A stretch of DNA of 42,534 nucleotides from Selenomonadaceae bacterium (GTDB lineage Bacteria; Bacillota; Negativicutes; Selenomonadales; Selenomonadaceae): NCBI GenBank assembly GCA_017470715.1, contig JAFUYE010000048.1:1-42534 (forward strand), in the 5' to 3' direction. The position numbers and the translations under genes were made by a program. The notes under the pieces were generated by a model. It did no database searches, was not told where the DNA came from, and saw only the letters and a list, made by a program, of their open reading frames with translations. Positions 724 to 21,422 of this stretch are shown in pieces; positions within the stretch are counted from its first letter, which is position 1, and every line of letters starts with the position of its first letter.

Positions 724-3700
724 ATGGAAGAAAAAATTTCCGGTAAAAATAAATCCGGCGGTCGCACGTTTTCGGTCGCGATTGTCGGCGGCGCGATTAT
801 CGCGGTGCTTTTAATTTTGTCGACGCTGTGGATTAATTGGATCGGGCAACAAGCCACGCAAGACATGGTTCATTCGGTGGGCAAAGTTTACCTGCGCGAA
901 TTGACCGACCGCCGCGAACAAGGCATTGCCTCACGAATCAACGACAATATTGCCAACATAAAAACCGCGCTGAAAGTTTTGACGGCGAACGATTTGGCAA
1001 GTGTCGAAAATTTGAGCGCGTTTCTCGGCAGGATGCGCACGATTCATGGCGTCGACCAATTTGCGCTTGTGGACGCGAACGGACAAATTTTCACGCCCGA
1101 AGGTGTTTCTTCCGCCGACGAATATTTTTTTGTGCACGAAATGATTGCCGAGCCGAAAATTTTCACACGTGGCAAGCAAGTTACAATCGCCGTGCCTGCG
1201 GAAAATTTGACGTTCCAAAACGTGCCGATAAAATTTTGTTTCATTCAGGCGGAAGTTGAAGATTTGCTCAAGGAAATTTTGTTGCAGACGACGACGCACG
1301 AATTGACATTGTTCAACCTGTACCAAAAGAACGGCGACACTTTGACCGATTCGGATTCGCTTGTCGGCGGCACGAACATTTTGGACGCGCTGAACGAAGC
1401 GACTTTCGACGCGGGCAACTCCAAAGAACAAGTAATTTTTGATTTCGAGAATTCTCGCAGCGGGATGTCGTCATTTACTTTGGACGGCGTGAAGCTGGCG
1501 ATTTTTTATCGTCCCGTCGAAAACACCGGCTGGATGTTGTCCTACATGATTCGCGAAAACAAAATCGGTGAAGAAATTTCCGCCGTCAACGACAAAATCA
1601 CGCGCTACAATTTGATTCAAATGATTTTGACGGGCATTGCGATGATTCTTGTGTTCGCGCTGATAATTTCGCAGTCACGCAAAAATTCTCAACTGATTCA
1701 CGAACAAAAACTTGCTGAAGCGGAAAACCGAATCAAAGATGCCGAGATGGAAGAAAAATTCCGCCTGCAGACGAAACTTTTATCCGAAGAACGTCGCCGC
1801 CGCCGTCAAAGCGAAATGATTCAGGCGTTGACTGCCGATTATCGATTGGTTTATCACTTGAATTTGGATTCGGACGAGGCTGTCTGTTATCGTGTCGCGC
1901 CCGAAGTTTCCGCCAAGCTCAACCGTCACGAAAGCGACGTTGTTCGTTTTTCCGTTGTGATTAAAGCTTACGCGAAAAATCACGTTGCGCCCGCCGACCG
2001 CGAAAACTTTTTGGAATTCGTCAAGCCGGAAAATATTCGCGCACGTTTGCAGGAAAGCGACATGATTTCGTTCCGCTATCTGATGAACCGCGACGGCGAA
2101 GAACATTTCATGCTGATTCGTGTTGCCCGCATTGACGAAGGACTTCACGCTGTCGGTGTCGGTTTCGCGAACGTCGACGACCAAATTCGCGAAGAGATGT
2201 CTCGCAACCAAAAACTTTCCGACGCGCTCGCGCAGGCTCAGCACGCCAACATTGCGAAGACAACTTTCCTGTCGAACATGAGCCACGACATACGCACGCC
2301 GATGAACGCGATTATCGGTTTTACGACAATGGCACTTCGGCACTTTGAAAATCGCACGCAAGTCAAAGATTCGCTTGAAAAAGTTTTGGCGTCAAGCAAC
2401 CACTTGCTCGGCTTGATTAACGACATTTTGGACATGAGCCGAATTGAAAGCGGACGCGTCGAAGTCGCCGAACAGGAATGCAACTTGAGCGACCTCGTGC
2501 ACAATTTGATTCACATAATCCAGCCGCAGATAACCGCCAAGCAACAAAAATTCCAAATCGACGCGTTCAAAGTCAAAAACGAAGACATTCTCGGCGACCA
2601 ACTCAAAATCAATCAAGTGCTGATAAATATTTTGAGCAACGCGGTCAAATACACGCCGTCGACCGGTTCGATTTTCTTCCGCATTTCGCAATACGAATCG
2701 AACGTGCCCGGTTATGCGCGTTACGAATTCCGAATCAAAGATAACGGCATGGGCATGAGCAAAGAATTTCTTAAGCACGTGTTCGACCCGTTTGAGCGCG
2801 AAGAAACTTCGACGAAAAGCGGCATTCAAGGCACCGGACTCGGCATGTCGATTACGAAAAAAATGGTTGAACTTATGGGCGGCGATATTCACGTCGAATC
2901 CGAAAAAGACAAAGGCTCCGAATTCACCGTGACGCTTGATTTAAAATTGCAACAGAACGTTAAAGCGGCGTCAATTCAGGAACTGCGCGGACTGCGTGCG
3001 TTGATTGTCGACGACGATTTCAACACGTGCGAATCCGTCACCGAAATGCTAAAACAAATGGGTATGCGTTCAGAGTGGACGACCAGCCCGCGTGAAGCCG
3101 TTTTCCGTGCGGGACGTGCGCTTGACAATGATCCGTTCAATGCTTACGTTGTCGATTGGCTTATGCCGGAACAAAACGGAATTGAAACCGTGCGGCAAAT
3201 TCGTCGCGTTGTCGGGATGACCGCGCCCATGATTATTTTGACGGCTTACGATTATTCCGATATTGAACTTGAGGCGAAACAAGCCGGCGTTACAACTTTT
3301 TGCACGAAGCCGCTTTTCATGAGCGACTTGAAAAATGCTTTATCGCGGGCAATCGGCGGGCAAGAAGAAATTTCCAAAGCCGACGAATTGACTGCGACGG
3401 ACTTCAGCGGCAAGCGCGTTTTGCTCGTCGAGGACATTGAAGTCAATCGCGAAATTGCCAAAGCCGTGCTTGAGGAAATCGGGCTTGAAGTTGACGACGC
3501 CGACGACGGGACTGTTGCCGTTGAAAAATTCCGTGACGCGCCGCCGAATCGCTACGACTTGATTTTGATGGATGTTCAAATGCCGAAAATGAACGGTTAC
3601 GAAGCGACGCGGGCAATTCGTTCGATTGAACGCGAAGACGCTCACACCGTCCCGATTGTCGCGATGACCGCCAACGCTTTTGAGGAAGACAAAGACAACG

Positions 3701-11971: not shown

Positions 11972-11994
11972 AAAAAATTTTTGAGGTGATTATT

Positions 11995-13437
11995 TTGGAT
12001 TACGAAGCAGTTATCGGTTTGGAAATTCATTCCGAACTTAAAACCGCAACGAAAATTTTCTGCGGCTGTGCAACGACTTTCGGCGCGGAACAAAATACGC
12101 ACGTTTGCCCCGTGTGTTTGGGATTGCCGGGCGTTTTGCCGACAATCAATAAAAAAGTCGTCGAATTCGCCATCAAAGCCGGACTTGCGACAAATTGCAA
12201 AATAAATAAGTTCAGCAAGTTCGATCGCAAAAATTATTACTATCCAGACCTTCCGAAGAATTGGCAGACCTCGCAATACGATTTGCCGATTGCTTATGAA
12301 GGTCATGTGGACATTGACGTTGACGGAGTGAAAAAAACTGTCCGTTTGACGCGAATTCACATGGAAGAGGACGCGGGCAAGCTCGTTCACAGCGGAACCA
12401 CGATTAAAGATTCGGCAAGCTCGAACGTCGATTACAATCGCACGGGTGTTCCGTTGATTGAGATTGTCAGCGAACCGGACATGCATTCGGCGGCGGAAGC
12501 TCGCGCTTACATGGAAAAAATCAAGTCGATTCTCGAATATATCGACGTGAGCAACTGCCGCATGGAGGAAGGCAACCTGCGCGCCGACATCAACGTCTCG
12601 TTGCGCCCGATTGGCTCCGAAAAGCTCGGAACGCGAACAGAAATGAAGAATATTAACTCGTTCAAAGCTCTCGAAGACGCGATTAACTACGAAATCGAAC
12701 GTCAAGCGGAAGTTTTGGACGACGGCGGCAAAATTATTCAGGAAACGCGAACTTGGAACCCCGAACGCGGAATTACGCAGTCGATGCGTTCAAAAGAGGA
12801 CGCGCACGATTATCGTTACATGCCGGAACCGGATTTGCCGCCGATTGTCACGACGGACGAAGAAATTGACGCGTTCAGAAAATCTTTGCCCGAATTGCCC
12901 GATGCTCGCCGCGAACGTCTGATAAAAACTTTCGGATTGAGCGAATACGACGCCGGAATTATCACAAGCTCACGCGCAATGGCTGAATACTTCGATTCGG
13001 TTGTTGACGGCGGAGCGGACGCGAAAGTTGCCGCGAATTGGATTATGGGCGATTTGTCGAAAAATCTTAACGCGGACGGCTTGACGATTGAAAATTCTCC
13101 CGTTGACGCGAAAAGACTTGCCGAAATGATTCAGCTTATCGCGAAAGGCACAATCAGCGGCAAAATCGCCAAAACTGTTTTCGCCGAAATGTGGAAGTCG
13201 CCCGACTCGCCCGAAAAAATTGTTCGCGATAAAGGTTTGGTGCAAATTACCGACACGGGCGCGATTGAAAGCGTTATCGACGAAGTTATTGCGAAAAATC
13301 CCAAAGCTGTCGAAGAATATCGCGGCGGCAAGAAAAAAGCTGTCGGTGCGCTCGTCGGGCAAGTCATGAAGCTCACGAAAGGCAAGGCGAATCCTCAACT
13401 GGTCAATCAGTTGCTTGCGAAAAAATTGGAGGCATAA
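11995..13437 (+). CDS. gatB: Asp-tRNA(Asn)/Glu-tRNA(Gln) amidotransferase subunit B
   Basis: This is the tRNA-binding, kinase-type subunit of GatCAB, which converts misacylated Glu-tRNA(Gln) and Asp-tRNA(Asn) to the correct amides. About 480 residues, full length. Visible marks: [10 protein letters not shown] at the start, a CGC...CPVC zinc-type pair of cysteine motifs, the [13 protein letters not shown] signature, HMEEDAGK, and a C-terminal YqeY-like helical domain ending [17 protein letters not shown] prefer TTG at 11995 (GAGGTG 6 nt upstream) over GTG at 11986, which overlaps that site. gatC and gatA are not in the window. The start lies only 23 nt after the DUF262 pair with no terminator between, so it may be transcribed from their promoter. 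Confidence 0.95.
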
Positions 13438-14961: not shown

Positions 14962-15888
14962 TCAATTCCACCATTCGACGTGTGAGCCGATACCGCCGTC
15001 ACGAACGTCGACATGAATGAACCACGCGCCGCCGTTTTCAAGTGGCGGGTAAAATCCTGTCCCGTCGAAGTCAATACTTTCAACGAGCTCACGCGCACGC
15101 TTAAAGCCGATTTCGGGAATTGTTATGTCAGCCGCAGTTCCCAGCACGTGCTGAGAATTCGGGACGCCGCCGACTTCTTTATTGTGTTTCGAGCAACGAT
15201 AGCCGCAGTTGACGTGAACCGGTTTGCCTGCTTTTGCTCTGAGTTCTTCCAGCAGTTCAATCAGTCGCGAATCAACCGAACCTTGCCCGCAACAGTGACA
15301 GACGAATTCGGACGCGTTGAAATGTGAACCGACAGTTCCCGATTGCGTTGGTGTGTCAACAACGTCGGGCAACGGCTTTTCGTTGGCGAAATAATCGGTG
15401 ACGCCGCGAGCGATTGCACGGGCGAAATCGTCTTCACGGTCAATCAAAAGTTTGGCGTCGTCAGGATTATCGATAAAAGCTGTCTCAACCAAAACTGCGG
15501 GCGCGTCCGTGTGTTTGAGCACGTAAAAATTTGCTGTCTTCACGCCACGATTGATGACGGGCAACGAATTGATGATTTGTGCTTGAATCTTTTCCGCAAG
15601 ACGCGTGCTTTTCATGCCGCCCGATGAAAAAGTTTCAGTGCCTTTTGCAGTGCCCGTCGCCGCGTTGCAGTGAATTGAAACGAACAAGTCTGCTTTCCAT
15701 GCGTTTGCGTCGAAACAAATTTCGCCGAGCCCGTCGTATTGGAAAAGTTTCACGTCATAGCCGACAGCCCGCAGGTAGCCTTCGACGCGTTTGCCGATTT
15801 TCAAGACAATGTCAGCTTCGCGAAGTCCGTTACCGCACGCGCCGGGGTCAAGTTGCACGTCGTGTCCGGGGTTAATGAAAATTCTCAT
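14962..15888 (-). CDS. Endolysin: N-acetylmuramoyl-L-alanine amidase fused to M15 peptidase
   Basis: This is a 308-residue cytoplasmic lysin that would degrade peptidoglycan at the end of infection. The N-terminal amidase_3 domain (about 1-170) has the zinc ligands His9 (NPGHD), Glu24 and His73 (SIHCNA), and the catalytic Glu135 (VLVETAF). A linker at 171-186 leads to a Peptidase_M15_3 domain (about 187-308) with GYRCSKHN, His247 (NSQH), Asp254 (AADI) and His292 (FIHVD). It has no signal peptide, so it needs the holin. The ATG overlaps the TGA of the holin-like gene in an ATGA junction. The pairing of a glycan-peptide amidase with a peptide-cutting domain on one chain is notable but known in Firmicutes phages. 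Confidence 0.93.
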   Translation of the reverse strand: MRIFINPGHDVQLDPGACGNGLREADIVLKIGKRVEGYLRAVGYDVKLFQYDGLGEICFDANAWKADLFVSIHCNAATGTAKGTETFSSGGMKSTRLAEKIQAQIINSLPVINRGVKTANFYVLKHTDAPAVLVETAFIDNPDDAKLLIDREDDFARAIARGVTDYFANEKPLPDVVDTPTQSGTVGSHFNASEFVCHCCGQGSVDSRLIELLEELRAKAGKPVHVNCGYRCSKHNKEVGGVPNSQHVLGTAADITIPEIGFKRARELVESIDFDGTGFYPPLENGGAWFIHVDVRDGGIGSHVEWWN

Positions 15889-16684: not shown

Positions 16685-17080
16685 TCAAACTCCTTTTACG
16701 CCGACAAGTGCGGCAATTTGTTTCAAATCGTCAATCGGAGCATTAAAAAAATCGTCGTTCCACAACCAATAATCTTGGTGTTCGGTGCGACGATATTTTT
16801 GCGCCAATTCATTTTCAAAAACTTTTTCCCAGCGGTCAGGATTAGCGTTGAATCCGCCGAGGGTTTTAATTATCGCGTGCGACAATCGATATCGTTCAAG
16901 TCCGTTGCCGTCGTCGTTGCGGGCGAAATATTCATGCGCCGCCGCGCTTCGAGACTTGCACACAGCACGAATGCCGAACCACAACGTCCCGTCGATTTTC
17001 TCAAGTTTCGTGCCATACGGGATGTTGAAATGTCCGCCGACGCCGTCACGCTTGAATCTTTTTGCCGTGATGTATTCCAT
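16685..17080 (-). CDS. Phage protein of unknown function downstream of the DGR reverse transcriptase
   Basis: This is a 131-residue protein starting MEYITAKRFKRDGVGG, with an IPYGT segment, an EYFARNDDGNGLERYRL segment and a tryptophan- and aspartate-rich tail. Similar proteins occur near lysis genes in Firmicutes prophages as far as I recall, always without known function. ATG at 17080 has GGAG 8 nt upstream. It overlaps the last 35 nt of the reverse transcriptase gene in another frame, so its translation may be coupled to that gene. No catalytic motif or membrane segment is seen. Confidence 0.65.
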   Translation of the reverse strand: MEYITAKRFKRDGVGGHFNIPYGTKLEKIDGTLWFGIRAVCKSRSAAAHEYFARNDDGNGLERYRLSHAIIKTLGGFNANPDRWEKVFENELAQKYRRTEHQDYWLWNDDFFNAPIDDLKQIAALVGVKGV

Positions 17081-18389
17081 CGCGTTCACTCCGTCTAAAA
17101 TTTTCGATTGATTCACAGGAAAAACCAAATAACGAGTAAAACAGCCGCCGAAGTTTTAAAACGTTGTTGTGTTCGTTGTAATTGTCGAGATATGCAAACA
17201 TCCCGTTGACGCTTGCCCAAACGGTTTCAAGGTCGATTTCGCCTGCGCACCATTTTCTATGAAGAGATTTAATTTTTCGTCTGTCACGCGGAACCGCTTT
17301 TTTATTGGCGCGCATGACAACTTTTCCGCTCTCGGTCAAGATGTATTTCGTTTTGCAGTAACGGAACGGCTTCGTCAACGGCACGTAGCGCGTCTTGCTG
17401 TCGTTGAAATTGAATTTGCAACGCTTTGCCTGCTCACGCAAGATTTTCAGCACTTCGCGATAATCCGTATCGGGCGGCAAAAGATTATAGAAATCGTCCA
17501 TATAATGCCCGCCCGTCAATTTGCACTGCGCGGACAAGTAGTTGTCCATTTCCGAAGGATAGGCAATCATTTCCGCTTGACTGGGTTCGACGCCCAACGG
17601 CATTCCGACACCGCCGGGTATGGTTTTGACTACCGCGTCGCCGAACGCCCTTAATTCGTCGTTCAAGATGAATTTCTCGTGGCGCGAATAAATGTAGTCG
17701 TGATTCGCACTCGGAAAGAATTTTTTCCCGTCCGCAAGAATAATTCCGCCTTCGCGTCCGTATTTTCTGAAGTGGCGACACAAATCTCTGACCAACATTC
17801 TTTGGCTGAAATGAAAACCTTTGTTCGGTAAGCTTGCGCCGTTGTTGTGAATCATGCTCGGCTGGTACAGCGGCAACAAAACCTTTTGCGTGAAGACTTT
17901 TTCGACTTGTCGGTCTTGAATACGCGGCGCGTCGATTGGTCTGACTTTCCCGCGTTCGCACAATGTGAAATGGACATACGGAGAAAATTTGTACTTACCG
18001 CTCAAAACGGCTCGACGACGGGCGGCGGTTCCGCTGAAAAGTCGCAGTTCAAAATTCTGGACGCTTTGTTTCCAACGGACACCGTTGCAACATTTCTTGC
18101 CCGCTTTGTACAGGTCGCGATAGTTGAAAACTTCGTCCGCGCCGCCGAGTTCGTCACAACGGTCTTGACGTATTTTCAGGCGTTTGGCTTGACGACGAAC
18201 GCGTCTGCCTTTTCGCCTGCTCATTCGAGGAAATTCGCCCGCTGTACCGATATTTTGTCGGGTACCGTCTAATCGGCTTTGTTCGCTACACATGAAACGG
18301 GATGAGGTACATTTCTCGCCATGCACGCGCTCATTTTGAGGCGGCGTACGTGCAGGAACATCAGCGGAACTGTTTTGGGCATTAGCCAC
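17046..18389 (-). CDS. DGR reverse transcriptase
   Basis: This reverse transcriptase copies the template repeat RNA into mutagenised cDNA. About 447 residues from GTG 18389. Motifs (numbered from that GTG): a basic N-terminal stretch; IILADGKKFFPS with catalytic Asp220; PLGVEPSQ at 264-271, the DGR-type form ending in SQ, not the QGxxxSP of most reverse transcriptases; and YMDD at 296-299. No maturase, endonuclease or integrase domain follows, which excludes a group II intron protein. Start choice: GTG 18389 has GAAAGGAG 11 nt upstream; ATG 18224, in front of MSRRKGRRVRR, is the other candidate and lacks a good site. Longer frames would run into the template repeat. The order target gene, avd, TR, RT is that of the Bordetella phage BPP-1 element. 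Confidence 0.93.
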   Translation of the reverse strand: MANAQNSSADVPARTPPQNERVHGEKCTSSRFMCSEQSRLDGTRQNIGTAGEFPRMSRRKGRRVRRQAKRLKIRQDRCDELGGADEVFNYRDLYKAGKKCCNGVRWKQSVQNFELRLFSGTAARRRAVLSGKYKFSPYVHFTLCERGKVRPIDAPRIQDRQVEKVFTQKVLLPLYQPSMIHNNGASLPNKGFHFSQRMLVRDLCRHFRKYGREGGIILADGKKFFPSANHDYIYSRHEKFILNDELRAFGDAVVKTIPGGVGMPLGVEPSQAEMIAYPSEMDNYLSAQCKLTGGHYMDDFYNLLPPDTDYREVLKILREQAKRCKFNFNDSKTRYVPLTKPFRYCKTKYILTESGKVVMRANKKAVPRDRRKIKSLHRKWCAGEIDLETVWASVNGMFAYLDNYNEHNNVLKLRRLFYSLFGFSCESIENFRRSERDGIHHGKKIQA

Positions 18390-18459
18390 AGGAAACGTCT
18401 CTCCTTTCAAAAAGGTCTTTTCTTCACTGTCCGTTACTGTTTGTGACCTGTAATCTTGG

Positions 18460-18587
18460 AATCCGGAGCCAAACAACCCGCATTATTTGCGTTGTTATTA
18501 TTGGCAGAACCGTCGGTGTTTACATTACAGAAGTTATTATTGTTGTTGTAATTAGGCGAGGCAACCCACCACCACACAGCCGACGAC
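18460..18587 (-). repeat. DGR template repeat (TR)
   Basis: This is the donor copy of the repeat pair. Aligned to 19209-19336 without gaps (constant offset 749), the core 18463-18587 differs at 20 of 125 positions, 17 of them where the minus-strand TR has A. It is rich in AAY codons: in frame it would read WWVASPNYNNNNNF and then CNVNTDGSANNNNANN. It sits 18 nt after the avd stop codon and before the reverse transcriptase start. The last bases at 18451-18462 diverge from VR, as is usual where IMH* and IMH differ. No GC hairpin follows it. Confidence 0.95.
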
Positions 18588-18605
18588 TGATTTACAGAGA
18601 CGCAC

Positions 18606-19067
18606 CTAAGATTTTGTTTTCTTCGCGAAAGTTTGTTTGTCGGATTTCAGTACGCCCGCCAAAAGTTTCGCTTCGTCGTCGATTAAGCAACCGAGTTTTT
18701 CAGCCATCTTGTCGAGCTTTTGAATCGCGCCGCTTTTGTCTTTGTTGTCGAATGCCCCTTCGGGATTCAACATCAACAAATTGTAGATGTGAGCCAACTG
18801 AACGTCCAACGCGCCCAAAGCCGCTTTTGCACTGAGAAAATATTTTTCCCGCAACTCGAATCGAACTTGGTCGACAGGTTGCATTGTGTTGGCTTTTTCT
18901 GCATTCGCAATGATTTCGTGCGCAAGATGAATCGTATCGGTCGCCAAAAGCCGCGAATACCTTGCCGAAAGCCGCGACAAGAACCACAAGGTTTCCGTGT
19001 AAATCTTGTTCGCGGTGTTGACGAATTCCGCTTTACTGATTCCGCGTTTGGCTTTTAATACTGACAT
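18606..19067 (-). CDS. avd: DGR accessory variability determinant (Avd-like)
   Basis: This is a 153-residue protein, mostly helical, with no membrane segment and a Lys-rich tail (SDKQTFAKKTKS). Avd proteins form barrel-shaped pentamers of four-helix bundles that bind the reverse transcriptase and the template RNA. The assignment rests mainly on position, between the variable gene and TR, plus size and helical composition, because Avd sequences are poorly conserved. The segment LSARYSRLLATDTIHLAHEI fits a long amphipathic helix. ATG with GGAG 8 nt upstream. It is slightly longer than the BPP-1 protein. Its 3' end probably forms part of the DGR RNA. Confidence 0.82.
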   Translation of the reverse strand: MSVLKAKRGISKAEFVNTANKIYTETLWFLSRLSARYSRLLATDTIHLAHEIIANAEKANTMQPVDQVRFELREKYFLSAKAALGALDVQLAHIYNLLMLNPEGAFDNKDKSGAIQKLDKMAEKLGCLIDDEAKLLAGVLKSDKQTFAKKTKS

Positions 19068-19149
19068 GACAAACTCTCCGTTTAATGAAAATTCAACCGC
19101 GCCAATTTATCACAATCGGCTTGACGGGTCAAATGCTTTTTGGGCGTTG

Positions 19150-19171
19150 CCCGCACCCTGTCGGGCGCGGG
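19150..19171 (-). promoter_or_regulatory. DGR target hairpin downstream of VR
   Basis: On the coding (minus) strand CCCGCGCCC pairs with GGGTGCGGG (9 bp, one G-T wobble) around a GACA tetraloop. It starts 26 nt after the stop codon of the variable gene. In BPP-1 a GC-rich hairpin or cruciform just after VR is needed for efficient homing, and its loop sequence matters. There is no T-run, so it is not a terminator. No equivalent follows TR. Confidence 0.75.
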
Positions 19172-19197
19172 ACTTTCGTGACGATGAGACCGCTACG

Positions 19198-21087
19198 CTA
19201 TACCTTGAAAGCCGGAGCCAAACAACCCGCATAATAGGCGTAGCGATAACTGGCAGAACCGTCGGTGGATAAAATAAAGAAGTTACGAGTGTAGTAGTAA
19301 TAACGCGAGGCAACCCACCACCACACAGCCGACGACGTTGAATCATGCCTGTATTTTATCTTGGAATTTCCATTTTTGTAATAATCCATCTGCTTTTGGT
19401 GATTCTTTTCGTAGTCGTTCGCGTAAGTTCTTGCGCCTTGAACTTCCCATTCGGTGAGCAACGTCACGGCGTCGATTGTCTCTTCGATATTTGCTTCGAC
19501 GTTTGAACAGTTGCCTTTCGCGTCAACCCAACGGCTCCAAAGTCTCAAGGCGTTTCTCATGTCTGACGGCAACGCGGCAAGCAATGTGTTCGACTTCGGG
19601 CTTGTGAGCGTCGCGTCAGTCGCGTTGTAGCCGACGCATGAAGCCGTTTTCGCTGAACCGTATCCGCTCGGCTGTGTGCTTGTTGCGCCTAAAACGTCAT
19701 AACGGAAATCGGCACCTTTCCAACCGCCGTAGTTCGTGCCATAGTAACCGTTGCCGCTACCGTTGTTCGTTTGTCCCGTGTGATTCATGTTAAAACAAAT
19801 CGTCCCGTCAATCGAGCTTGAACCGTATTTGGCGTCGCAGAGCGCAACGTCTTTGCCGTTCGTGAGCGCGGTCTTGAAGCCGCTCCAGATGATATTATTG
19901 TCCGCCTTGCCGTTCAGCGCATAGTTGAAATGCAGGATAAACACGCACAACTTCTGATTGCTCAGCGTCAACTGGTTGCCGATTTTGCCGTTAAGCGTGA
20001 CTTCTTTGCAGTCGCCGATGTCCCAGTGCGTGTCACCGATTCCGGCTTTTGCAACGGCTGAAATTGTCGACCAGCTTGTTTCATTGAGCGTATTGCCGAC
20101 GACAATTTGAACTGTCGCCGAAAACGTCTGTGATTCGGGTGCGTTGTAATTTGTGCCCGCCGCCTGCGAAACGGTGATGATTGCGTTGCCCGCGCCTTTG
20201 CCCGTGACGGTGACCGTGTTGCCGCTGATTGTGGCGGTCGCAACTTCCGTGTCGCTTGACGTTACGGATAACGTCCCGTCGCTCGGTGTCGTCACGGTAA
20301 TCGTTGCCGTGTCGTCCAAACCGACAATGCCCGAAGTTTCCGACAGCGTCATTGTGCACGTGCCTTTTTCGGTTGAAACCGCGCACGTCGTCGAGCCCGC
20401 AAGATAATTCGTTGTTTCGGCGACGTTGATTGTGATTGTCACGTCATTATTTGAAACGCCGGCGGCTTGAACCGTCACCGAATCGGTTGACGCGCTTTGA
20501 ACATCAACAATCGTGTCGTTGCTTGAAGTTGCGGTGACTTCGCCGTTGCCCGCGTTGCCCGTGACGGAAATTGTGCCCGTCGAACCGTAGCCGACAGCTC
20601 CGTCGATTGTCGCCGAAAGATTGAGCGCGGCTTTTGCGATTGTCCACGTGACTTGTTTCGTGTTCGACGTGCCGTCAAGCCATGCGCACAAGCCCTGCGG
20701 CGTGAAAGTCGTTGTATAAGTGCCCGCTTCGGTTGCGGCTGTCGTCCCACCGATTGCCATTTGTTCAGAACTGTAATTGAGCCACGCGGGACTTTGTTCA
20801 GAACCGTTATACGTGAGCGAACCTGTTTGTTCGGGCGTGCTCAAATAAATCACTCCGCCGCCGCCGGAAATGCTTGCCCAAGTTCCATCACCGCGAAGGA
20901 AATAATTTTCTTCACCGGCTGAAGGTGCGGGAACAAGACCACTCAAGCCGCCCGTAATTGAAGTTGCGCCCGTGAAGTCAGAATAAGTTACTCCGCCGAT
21001 TGCCGAAGCCGAAAAGTTTTCGACGAAATCAACCATATCGTCATGGAAAACCTTTAACATGTTCACAACAGTATTTTTTGAAACCAC
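19198..21087 (-). CDS. DGR-diversified tail-fibre adhesin with C-terminal DUF6273 (C-type-lectin-like) domain
   Basis: This is the variable protein, about 629 residues, probably the receptor-binding fibre tip. Order: an N-terminal helix (VSKNTVVNMLKVFHDD) shared with neighbouring fibre proteins; the collar repeat FTGATSITGGLSG...FLRGDGTW (about 38-70); a beta module at about 80-152; two Ig-like BIG_2-type domains (about 155-240 and 245-330); then DUF6273 (about 335-629), with WDIGDCKEVTLNG, MNHTGQ, LPSDMRNALRLWS and DYYKNGNSKIKY. The variable repeat covers roughly the last 42 residues and ends at the invariant CLAPAFKV. The variable surface reads RYYYYTRN and SYRYAYY. I chose GTG 21087 because GGGAGG stands about 9 nt away and the start then matches the neighbours; GTG 21096 is too close to that site. 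Confidence 0.9.
   Translation of the reverse strand: MVSKNTVVNMLKVFHDDMVDFVENFSASAIGGVTYSDFTGATSITGGLSGLVPAPSAGEENYFLRGDGTWASISGGGGVIYLSTPEQTGSLTYNGSEQSPAWLNYSSEQMAIGGTTAATEAGTYTTTFTPQGLCAWLDGTSNTKQVTWTIAKAALNLSATIDGAVGYGSTGTISVTGNAGNGEVTATSSNDTIVDVQSASTDSVTVQAAGVSNNDVTITINVAETTNYLAGSTTCAVSTEKGTCTMTLSETSGIVGLDDTATITVTTPSDGTLSVTSSDTEVATATISGNTVTVTGKGAGNAIITVSQAAGTNYNAPESQTFSATVQIVVGNTLNETSWSTISAVAKAGIGDTHWDIGDCKEVTLNGKIGNQLTLSNQKLCVFILHFNYALNGKADNNIIWSGFKTALTNGKDVALCDAKYGSSSIDGTICFNMNHTGQTNNGSGNGYYGTNYGGWKGADFRYDVLGATSTQPSGYGSAKTASCVGYNATDATLTSPKSNTLLAALPSDMRNALRLWSRWVDAKGNCSNVEANIEETIDAVTLLTEWEVQGARTYANDYEKNHQKQMDYYKNGNSKIKYRHDSTSSAVWWWVASRYYYYTRNFFILSTDGSASYRYAYYAGCLAPAFKV
19209..19336 (-). 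repeat. DGR variable repeat (VR)
   Basis: This is the recipient copy of the repeat pair, at the 3' end of the adhesin gene. It encodes SSAVWWWVAS, then the varied residues, then AGCLAPAFK. The invariant GC-rich 3' end (plus 19212-19230) is the likely initiation site of mutagenic homing (IMH). Thirteen of 14 Asn codons of TR are replaced here: seven Tyr, two Arg, two Ser, one Thr, one Ile. Confidence 0.95.
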
Positions 21088-21105: not shown

Positions 21106-21390
21106 TTAAGAGAATAGCGCATGAATTTCCGAGGGACTGAAAGTTTCTTCGCCAACCCAAGTTCCATCGCCGCGCAAGAATTTGTTTTGGTCGCCCGCCT
21201 GTGGTGCAGGGACATGACCGCTTAAACCGCCCGCGATTGAAGTCGCGCCCGTGAAGTCAACGGTAATTGTTTGAAGTTCAGCGGCAACGGCGTTTGTAAC
21301 GTCTAGGATTTCGGCGAGGACATAGCGTTTTGCGCCGTTCGCAACGTCTTCGAGGTGACGCGCCCGCGCTAAGTTTTGTCCGTTGTCCAT
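21106..21390 (-). CDS. Small fibre/collar-repeat protein
   Basis: This is a 94-residue protein. The N-terminal half is helical. Residues about 44-78 are the collar repeat FTGATSIAGGLSG...FLRGDGTW, nearly identical to that in the variable adhesin downstream. It ends in FSPSEIHALFS, a form of the short C-terminal motif shared by the neighbouring fibre proteins. It may be a shortened partner or adaptor of the adhesin, carrying the collar without the receptor domain. ATG 21390 has CAGGAGG 7 nt upstream; a longer TTG frame does not. It stops 9 nt before the first in-frame GTG of the next gene. Confidence 0.75.
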   Translation of the reverse strand: MDNGQNLARARHLEDVANGAKRYVLAEILDVTNAVAAELQTITVDFTGATSIAGGLSGHVPAPQAGDQNKFLRGDGTWVGEETFSPSEIHALFS

Positions 21391-21422
21391 AGAGTCGCCT
21401 CCTGAAAACAAACGGGCTCCTG

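Follow-up and report, generated by a model that had tools for sequence, protein, structure and literature searches.

A predicted phage-type diversity-generating retroelement of Selenomonadaceae and RT-2 RNA as its likely template scaffold

Introduction

In the portions available of three publications on diversity-generating retroelements (DGRs), a GC-rich hairpin with a GRNA loop follows the variable repeat (VR) in phage DGRs (consensus from PMC3240598), VRs lie at the C-terminus of DUF6273 in the DGR targets of Faecalibacterium phages Roos, Pioen and Lelie and of the candidate prophage CP11 (PMC11792537), and DUF6273 targets have been modelled as C-type lectins (PMC10743442). In this study we analyzed a 42,534-nt stretch of DNA from a Selenomonadaceae bacterium (contig JAFUYE010000048.1 of assembly GCA_017470715.1), hereafter the window, which is the entire contig C12 of a 155-contig, 2.9 Mb assembly. 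It carries a cassette that is almost certainly a complete phage-type DGR with the mechanism proposed below, and by which a rumen Selenomonadaceae prophage joins a known clade of DGR phages. The structured RNA found between the template repeat (TR) and the reverse transcriptase (RT) gene matters more than the cassette itself.

Results and Discussion

Organization of the cassette and adenine bias of its repeats

All parts of the cassette are encoded on the minus strand (Table 1). An intact and collinear DGR in the gene order of Bordetella phage BPP-1 had been described in the original prediction, and both points agree with our analysis: the RT, the gene in the avd place, TR, the spacer RNA and the hairpin look intact, and the order target-VR, avd, TR, RT is that annotated for BPP-1.

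Table 1. Positions of the cassette features and adjoining genes in the window.
Feature	Position	Strand	Remarks
Endolysin	14962-15888	-	in tail/lysis region
Next gene after the RT, phrog_29409 family	16685-17080	-	overlaps RT end; open reading frame (ORF) open to 17128, ATG at 17080
DGR reverse transcriptase, 392 aa	17046-18224	-	YMDD, PLGVEPSQ; frame open further upstream, but that part is RNA
RT-2 structured RNA (Rfam RF03077), TR-RT spacer, 235 nt	18217-18451	-	110.7 bits, E 5.5e-26
Clamp helix	18407-18459	-	18459-18455 (TR 3' border) pairs with 18411-18407 (within RT-2)
3'-border TR/VR differences	18459-18462	-	A>C at 18462, C>T at 18459; type of the initiation of mutagenic homing sites (IMH/IMH*)
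Template repeat (TR)	18455-18587	-	repeat search and BLAST
Avd-like accessory protein, phrog_30516	18606-19067	-	predicted four-helix bundle
DNA hairpin	19150-19171	-	32 nt after VR; GACA loop, in keeping with 5'GRNA, on a stem of 9 bp that includes one G.T
Variable repeat (VR)	19204-19336	-	3' end of target gene; repeat search and BLAST
Target gene, tail-fibre-like	19198-21087	-	DUF6273 at C-terminus, VR at 3' end
Small tail gene	21106-21411	-	collar-like repeat and phrog_4302 match in common with target

The proposed TR/VR pair was borne out. The two repeats are 133 nt long and 83% identical, and 18 of their 22 mismatches are located at TR adenines, with nine A>T, six A>C and three A>G, the other four being C>G, G>T twice and C>T. 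The probability that at least 18 of 22 mismatches land on the 36 adenines among 133 TR positions is 4.4e-9. The 33 adenines counted originally fit the number upstream of the 3' border (36 in the whole TR), and 17 of these 33 are altered in VR. In a collection of TR/VR pairs, 55 have their final A mismatch no more than 16 nt from the 3' end, and in 52 of these the VR base is C, so that the A>C at the border is read as a fixed difference of the IMH type and not as mutagenesis.

The hairpin after VR is more stable than all of 200 shuffled versions (z -4.2). Perfect GC-rich stems of at least 5 bp occur within 90 nt after 53 of the 61 VRs in the collection, 35 of them with a GRNA loop; this count omits the window hairpin, owing to the G.T in its stem, and includes a few other small stems. 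A transcription terminator was rejected as the meaning of the hairpin, since the terminator scan lists no site there.

Relationship and start of the reverse transcriptase

The YMDD box and the SQ form of motif 4 that had been predicted are both present. Motif 4 reads PLGVEPSQ (xGxxxSQ), and the QGxxxSP of group II intron RTs is absent. In a tree of 18 RTs, constructed without retron RTs, the window RT pairs with that of viral contig L003 (100/100) within an eight-row clade that includes Faecalibacterium phage Pioen (100/100). The RT of Roseburia phage Shimadzu is the sister row to this clade, and three group II intron RTs form a 100/100 clade of their own. Grouping with intron enzymes had been named beforehand as the outcome that would speak against a DGR; in this tree the window RT falls with phage DGR RTs. 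RT matches occur in two genomes of the same genus and one of the same family, the best same-genus RT being 75% identical. By sequence, the top PDB match is a chain of 8ub7 (E 8e-12), an entry whose title is that of a DGR reverse transcriptase complex, compared with E 0.0035 for an intron RT. It is hardly credible that the enzyme is instead a group II intron, retron or defence RT beside an incidental repeat: a weak NCBIfam group II intron RT match speaks for it (34.4 bits, cut-off 300), and motif 4, the tree, the adenine bias and the hairpin all speak against it. A group II intron origin was rejected on motif 4 and on the separate intron clade.

The RT had been given the extent 17046-18389, and its start needs correction. 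Position 18389 sits within the conserved structured RNA, and the relatives start at the site of the window ATG at 18224, where the family begins with MTSxER and the window reads MSRRKGRR; the start at 18389 was rejected accordingly. The AAAGGAG before 18389 is a block conserved across the family. In nine relatives, reading upstream from the RT start meets an in-frame stop after 9 to 189 nt, and in five of them after no more than 48 nt, which indicates that an open upstream frame is not a family feature. Thus the RT probably starts at 18224.

An RT-2 RNA between the template repeat and the reverse transcriptase

The spacer of the window covers the whole RF03077 model (1-222 of 222) far above its gathering threshold of 40 bits, and the Rfam Phage_DGR model (RF03022) gave no match at E up to 1 between 17000 and 21500. 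Rfam types RT-2 as 'Gene; sRNA' with no function in its output, and the name states no role in DGRs. Alignment of 48 loci shows the TR-RT interval to be conserved; the other 13 of the 61 pairs were dropped because our script found no RT motif in them. Among sources picked by RT kinship, RT-2 was found in 9 of 13 (BPP-1 gave Phage_DGR, and L096, L099 and L100 nothing), in a further 12 of 12 and 13 of 13, and in Shimadzu (144.9 bits). Since L099 and L100 possess A-specific pairs without RT-2, this RNA marks one DGR clade and not all DGRs. It is also rare in an even sample of 398 genomes of the phylum, two of which have a match at E 0.001 and one, the window's own, a match over the cut-off.

Base pairing in the spacer is conserved by covariation. 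The consensus from 36 sequences has 47 pairs, of which 32 are changed on both sides, with 95.7% of cells paired; none of 500 shuffles was as good and slid versions reached 40-51%, although one alignment served for both predicting and testing the structure, which favours it. In this alignment the helix joining the TR border to the spacer shows double changes in all five pairs, with 97.8% of cells paired. The helix was also examined in 45 outside records not in the RT-scan set, 32 of which were script-readable. Here 58 of 70 cells pair, from 14 distinct strand pairs, a few of them probably misread given their odd spacing; the shuffle mean is 45, none of 2000 shuffles is as high, and slid versions reach 30-49%. 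Single-sequence folding was not better than shuffles for the window spacer (z -0.5) and not clearly better for that of BPP-1 (z -1.4), so that the structure rests on covariation and not on energy.

Searching with a 20-mer from RT-2 found 68 viral contigs, 23 of which, by record name, were already in the RT scan. Twelve of them were checked against Rfam and all twelve are RT-2, a check that is partly circular. An RT adjoins the RNA in 67 of the 68. The downstream frame has an H[YF]xDD box in 61, where the first SQ match to motif 4 is GVEPSQ-like in 59 (57 exactly) and another segment was hit in two. The other six have the N-terminal RT signature only: five end within 740 nt, and L125 has room with no box in frame. 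The remaining locus, L152, stops after 158 nt. Among the 41 contigs with at least 1.5 kb upstream, 39 have a second copy of the TR region, adenine-biased in 38, and unfiltered mismatches in these 39 loci fall at A in 595 of 621 cases. The exceptions are L127 and L132, with no repeat, and L141, with 7 of 18 mismatches at A.

Several of these contigs have further peculiarities. L141 resembles an eroded DGR, its TR being adenine-poor and its RT reading GREPSQ. The 7.6-kb L132 carries two RT-2 RNAs (798-1065 and 3184-3408). Hammerhead-II ribozymes were seen on the minus strand of L012 (10633-12022), L015 (10930-10994) and L126 (13888-13976), and a twister-sister ribozyme on that of L074 (11947-12028).

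We therefore regard it as very probable that RT-2 serves as the 3' scaffold of template RNAs in a large clade of phage DGRs, mostly from Clostridia and Selenomonadaceae records, that it takes the place of the Phage_DGR RNA of BPP-1, and that a covarying helix reaching beyond the Rfam model clamps the TR 3' border. It is improbable that the conserved RNA is instead a leader that only controls RT expression and forms no part of the template RNA. The end of the RNA at the start codon of the RT would be compatible with a cis-regulator, and the Rfam type with no function given would suit such a leader. On the other hand, the RNA begins -4 to 52 nt after the TR end in the 29 loci with both mapped, the covarying helix ties the TR border to its interior, and a named DGR RNA sits in the same place in BPP-1.

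If the scaffold role is correct, it would supply a function for an RNA family whose name reflects only the gene beside it, and RT start codons called too far upstream could be corrected. The adjoining RTs of the 20-mer contigs would offer an RNA-first route to DGR discovery, and the priming and assembly model derived from BPP-1 could be tested on a second, differently built spacer RNA. RT-2 reportedly goes back to Weinberg 2017, and its link to DGRs may already be in print. Among the papers found, only the Rfam 15 paper names RT-2, with RF03077 in a table of improved structures in the part available. In the accessible text of a DGR paper (PMC8143477), Weinberg 2017 is cited for two protein domains and not for RT RNAs.

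Target and Avd-like proteins

The target matches phrog_37900 at E 1e-116. Its longest ORF reaches 21096, and by eye the spacing of the GGAGG-type site is better for the GTG at 21087. Among viral structure models (BFVD), the top match is a tail-collar fibre protein, and DUF6273 proteins are among the first nine rows. A collar repeat, immunoglobulin (Ig)-like domains and a DUF6273 end had been assigned to this protein. The collar repeat stands (20877-20980 and 21156-21259, 78% identical DNA), as does the DUF6273 end (residues 524-631 of 632, 23.9 bits against a cut-off of 23.5), but the Ig-like match (He_PIG) scores 18.5 bits, under its cut-off of 24. The DUF6273 end is no distinguishing mark of the target either, since PMC11792537, in the part available, reports DUF6273 DGR targets in other phages. 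The avd-place gene product is modelled as four helices, close to Avd (VIA-align), and may be a true Avd.

Proposed mechanism

A transcript through avd, TR and the RT-2 spacer would fold, the spacer being the scaffold that clamps the TR 3' border. The RT and the Avd-like protein would bind the folded RNA and copy TR to complementary DNA (cDNA) with errors opposite adenines; the way in which RT, Avd and RT-2 assemble is proposed by analogy with BPP-1. The cDNA would then take the place of VR in the 3' end of the tail-protein gene, with the common 3' border and the hairpin after VR as guides, yielding a library of tail tips in which as many as 33 adenines upstream of the border vary. The tail protein would bind a host receptor, and rapid switching of the receptor range of the phage, as in the original prediction, may follow.

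Diversification in relatives and state of the window copy

Diversification is seen in relatives of the window phage, from comparisons of viral contig sequences. An alignment of 10,266 bp between L014 and L027, which come from two IMG samples, contains 16 differences, and every one of them is in VR opposite a TR adenine. In L134/L162 all 18 differing sites over 6,070 bp are in VR, and the differences inside VR amount to 12 of 14 in L108/L111, 15 of 17 in L108/L113, 18 of 19 in L111/L113 and 20 of 25 in L107/L158. Eight other contig pairs show no VR change; in five of them VR was not found or lies outside or almost outside the aligned part.

A different pattern was observed where L133/L012 (TR at 7687-7810 of L133) is compared with L154/L013: 15 of the 16 differences between these two contigs over 7,015 bp are in TR. 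The TR of L133 has lost adenines and has two differences from its own VR, with the VR-side border base included. This denotes either VR-to-TR overwriting or an assembly error.

We consider the window copy likely to be active as well. Several results weigh against a complete and working DGR in the window. The same VR is found in L007/L120 (0 differences), L008/L120 (21) and L008/L007 (74 sites elsewhere), so that rewriting is not constant, and scans of viral contigs with a 25-mer and a 22-mer gave 0 matches for near-identical copies of the window phage. The profile of the Avd-like family does not match the Avd of BPP-1 or VP58.5 (probability 0.2 and 0.3%) and matches the annotated Avd of Shimadzu only middlingly (46%, E 2e-4), with no match by BLASTP; the Avd-like gene of the original prediction is thus supported by its place and four-helix model but not by a sequence match to BPP-1 Avd. 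The model of the target tip is poor, with a mean pLDDT (predicted local distance difference test) of 63, and a Foldseek search of PDB returned nothing under E 0.001 for either the tip or the avd-place model. The first pair of the clamp helix in the window is a non-standard C.A. Finally, non-A mismatches make up 3 of the 20 in the window core (C>G, G>T, G>T), a larger share than the 17 of 892 seen among the other pairs (Fisher P 0.008). They lie at TR 18555, 18528 and 18523, where by eye most relatives' TRs keep the window TR base, which places the changes probably in VR. Ordinary mutations have probably accumulated in the window VR since it was last rewritten, or else the RT is less specific.

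These three changes and the C.A pair would also suit a DGR by descent that is now silent in the window prophage, its VR being a frozen past variant. The same genome, with a single match each for Avd and RT-2, lends this some further weight. Contig C20 (L034, 2-1192) encodes a DUF6273-type target 67% identical to that of the window, whose VR-like end is 71% identical in DNA to the window TR. It is followed directly by a relative of the phrog_29409 gene, with no avd, TR or RT between. On contig C127 (L035, 183-869), a fragment of an RT, sharing 94% identity with that of the window, is cut off after YMDD and runs into the next gene, and the part before the fragment does not align to the window; it represents either decay of a DGR or a join made during assembly. 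Both arrangements could be due in part to strains having been mixed in the assembly. A silent cassette is nevertheless unlikely: no part among RT, avd-place gene, TR, RT-2 and hairpin looks damaged in the window, RT-2 scores 70 bits above threshold, 18 TR adenines differ in VR, and ten other pairs of the 61 likewise have non-A core changes.

Genomic setting

Host-like genes, such as GatB at 11986-13437, occupy the left 14.6 kb of the window, and phage tail and lysis genes on the minus strand extend from about 15 kb to the contig end. One of the phage proteins (24084-34550, minus strand) is 3488 aa long and combines a ddrB-like ParB domain with a transglycosylase domain; it also has a weak match of the PLxRFG tail type. 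No integrase or attachment site was identified in the window, the ORFs searched being a selection. A tRNA as attachment site was rejected, as the window has none.

Comparison with known systems

Tentaclins share with the window target the DUF6273 domain, which, in the part available of PMC10743442, is modelled as C-type lectin and hypermutated by a DGR. Their DUF6273 domain is N-terminal and followed by Ig domains, whereas that of the window target is C-terminal, so that the target does not have the tentaclin layout. The Rfam RT-2 model differs from the window RNA in not extending to the 5' strand of the clamp helix.

The BPP-1 DGR (NC_005357.1) resembles the window not only in gene order and A-biased repeat but also in an avd-place protein of similar fold, a GRNA hairpin and a structured spacer. 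However, its RT is only about 25% identical, its target is Mtd, its spacer is RF03022 Phage_DGR (104.7 bits) and not RT-2, and its hairpin follows VR after 4 nt, compared with 32 nt in the window. The RT region of Shimadzu (LR596903.1) is nearer in having RT-2 before the RT and an annotated Avd gene upstream, though the RT is about 32% identical and the Avd weakly alike. The Pioen DGR (PP479940.1; PMC11792537) belongs to a phage of a different host, but its RT is about 46% identical and of the same clade, and it shares with the window the RT-2 spacer RNA, the DUF6273 target and an adenine-specific TR/VR pair (17 of 17 Pioen mismatches).

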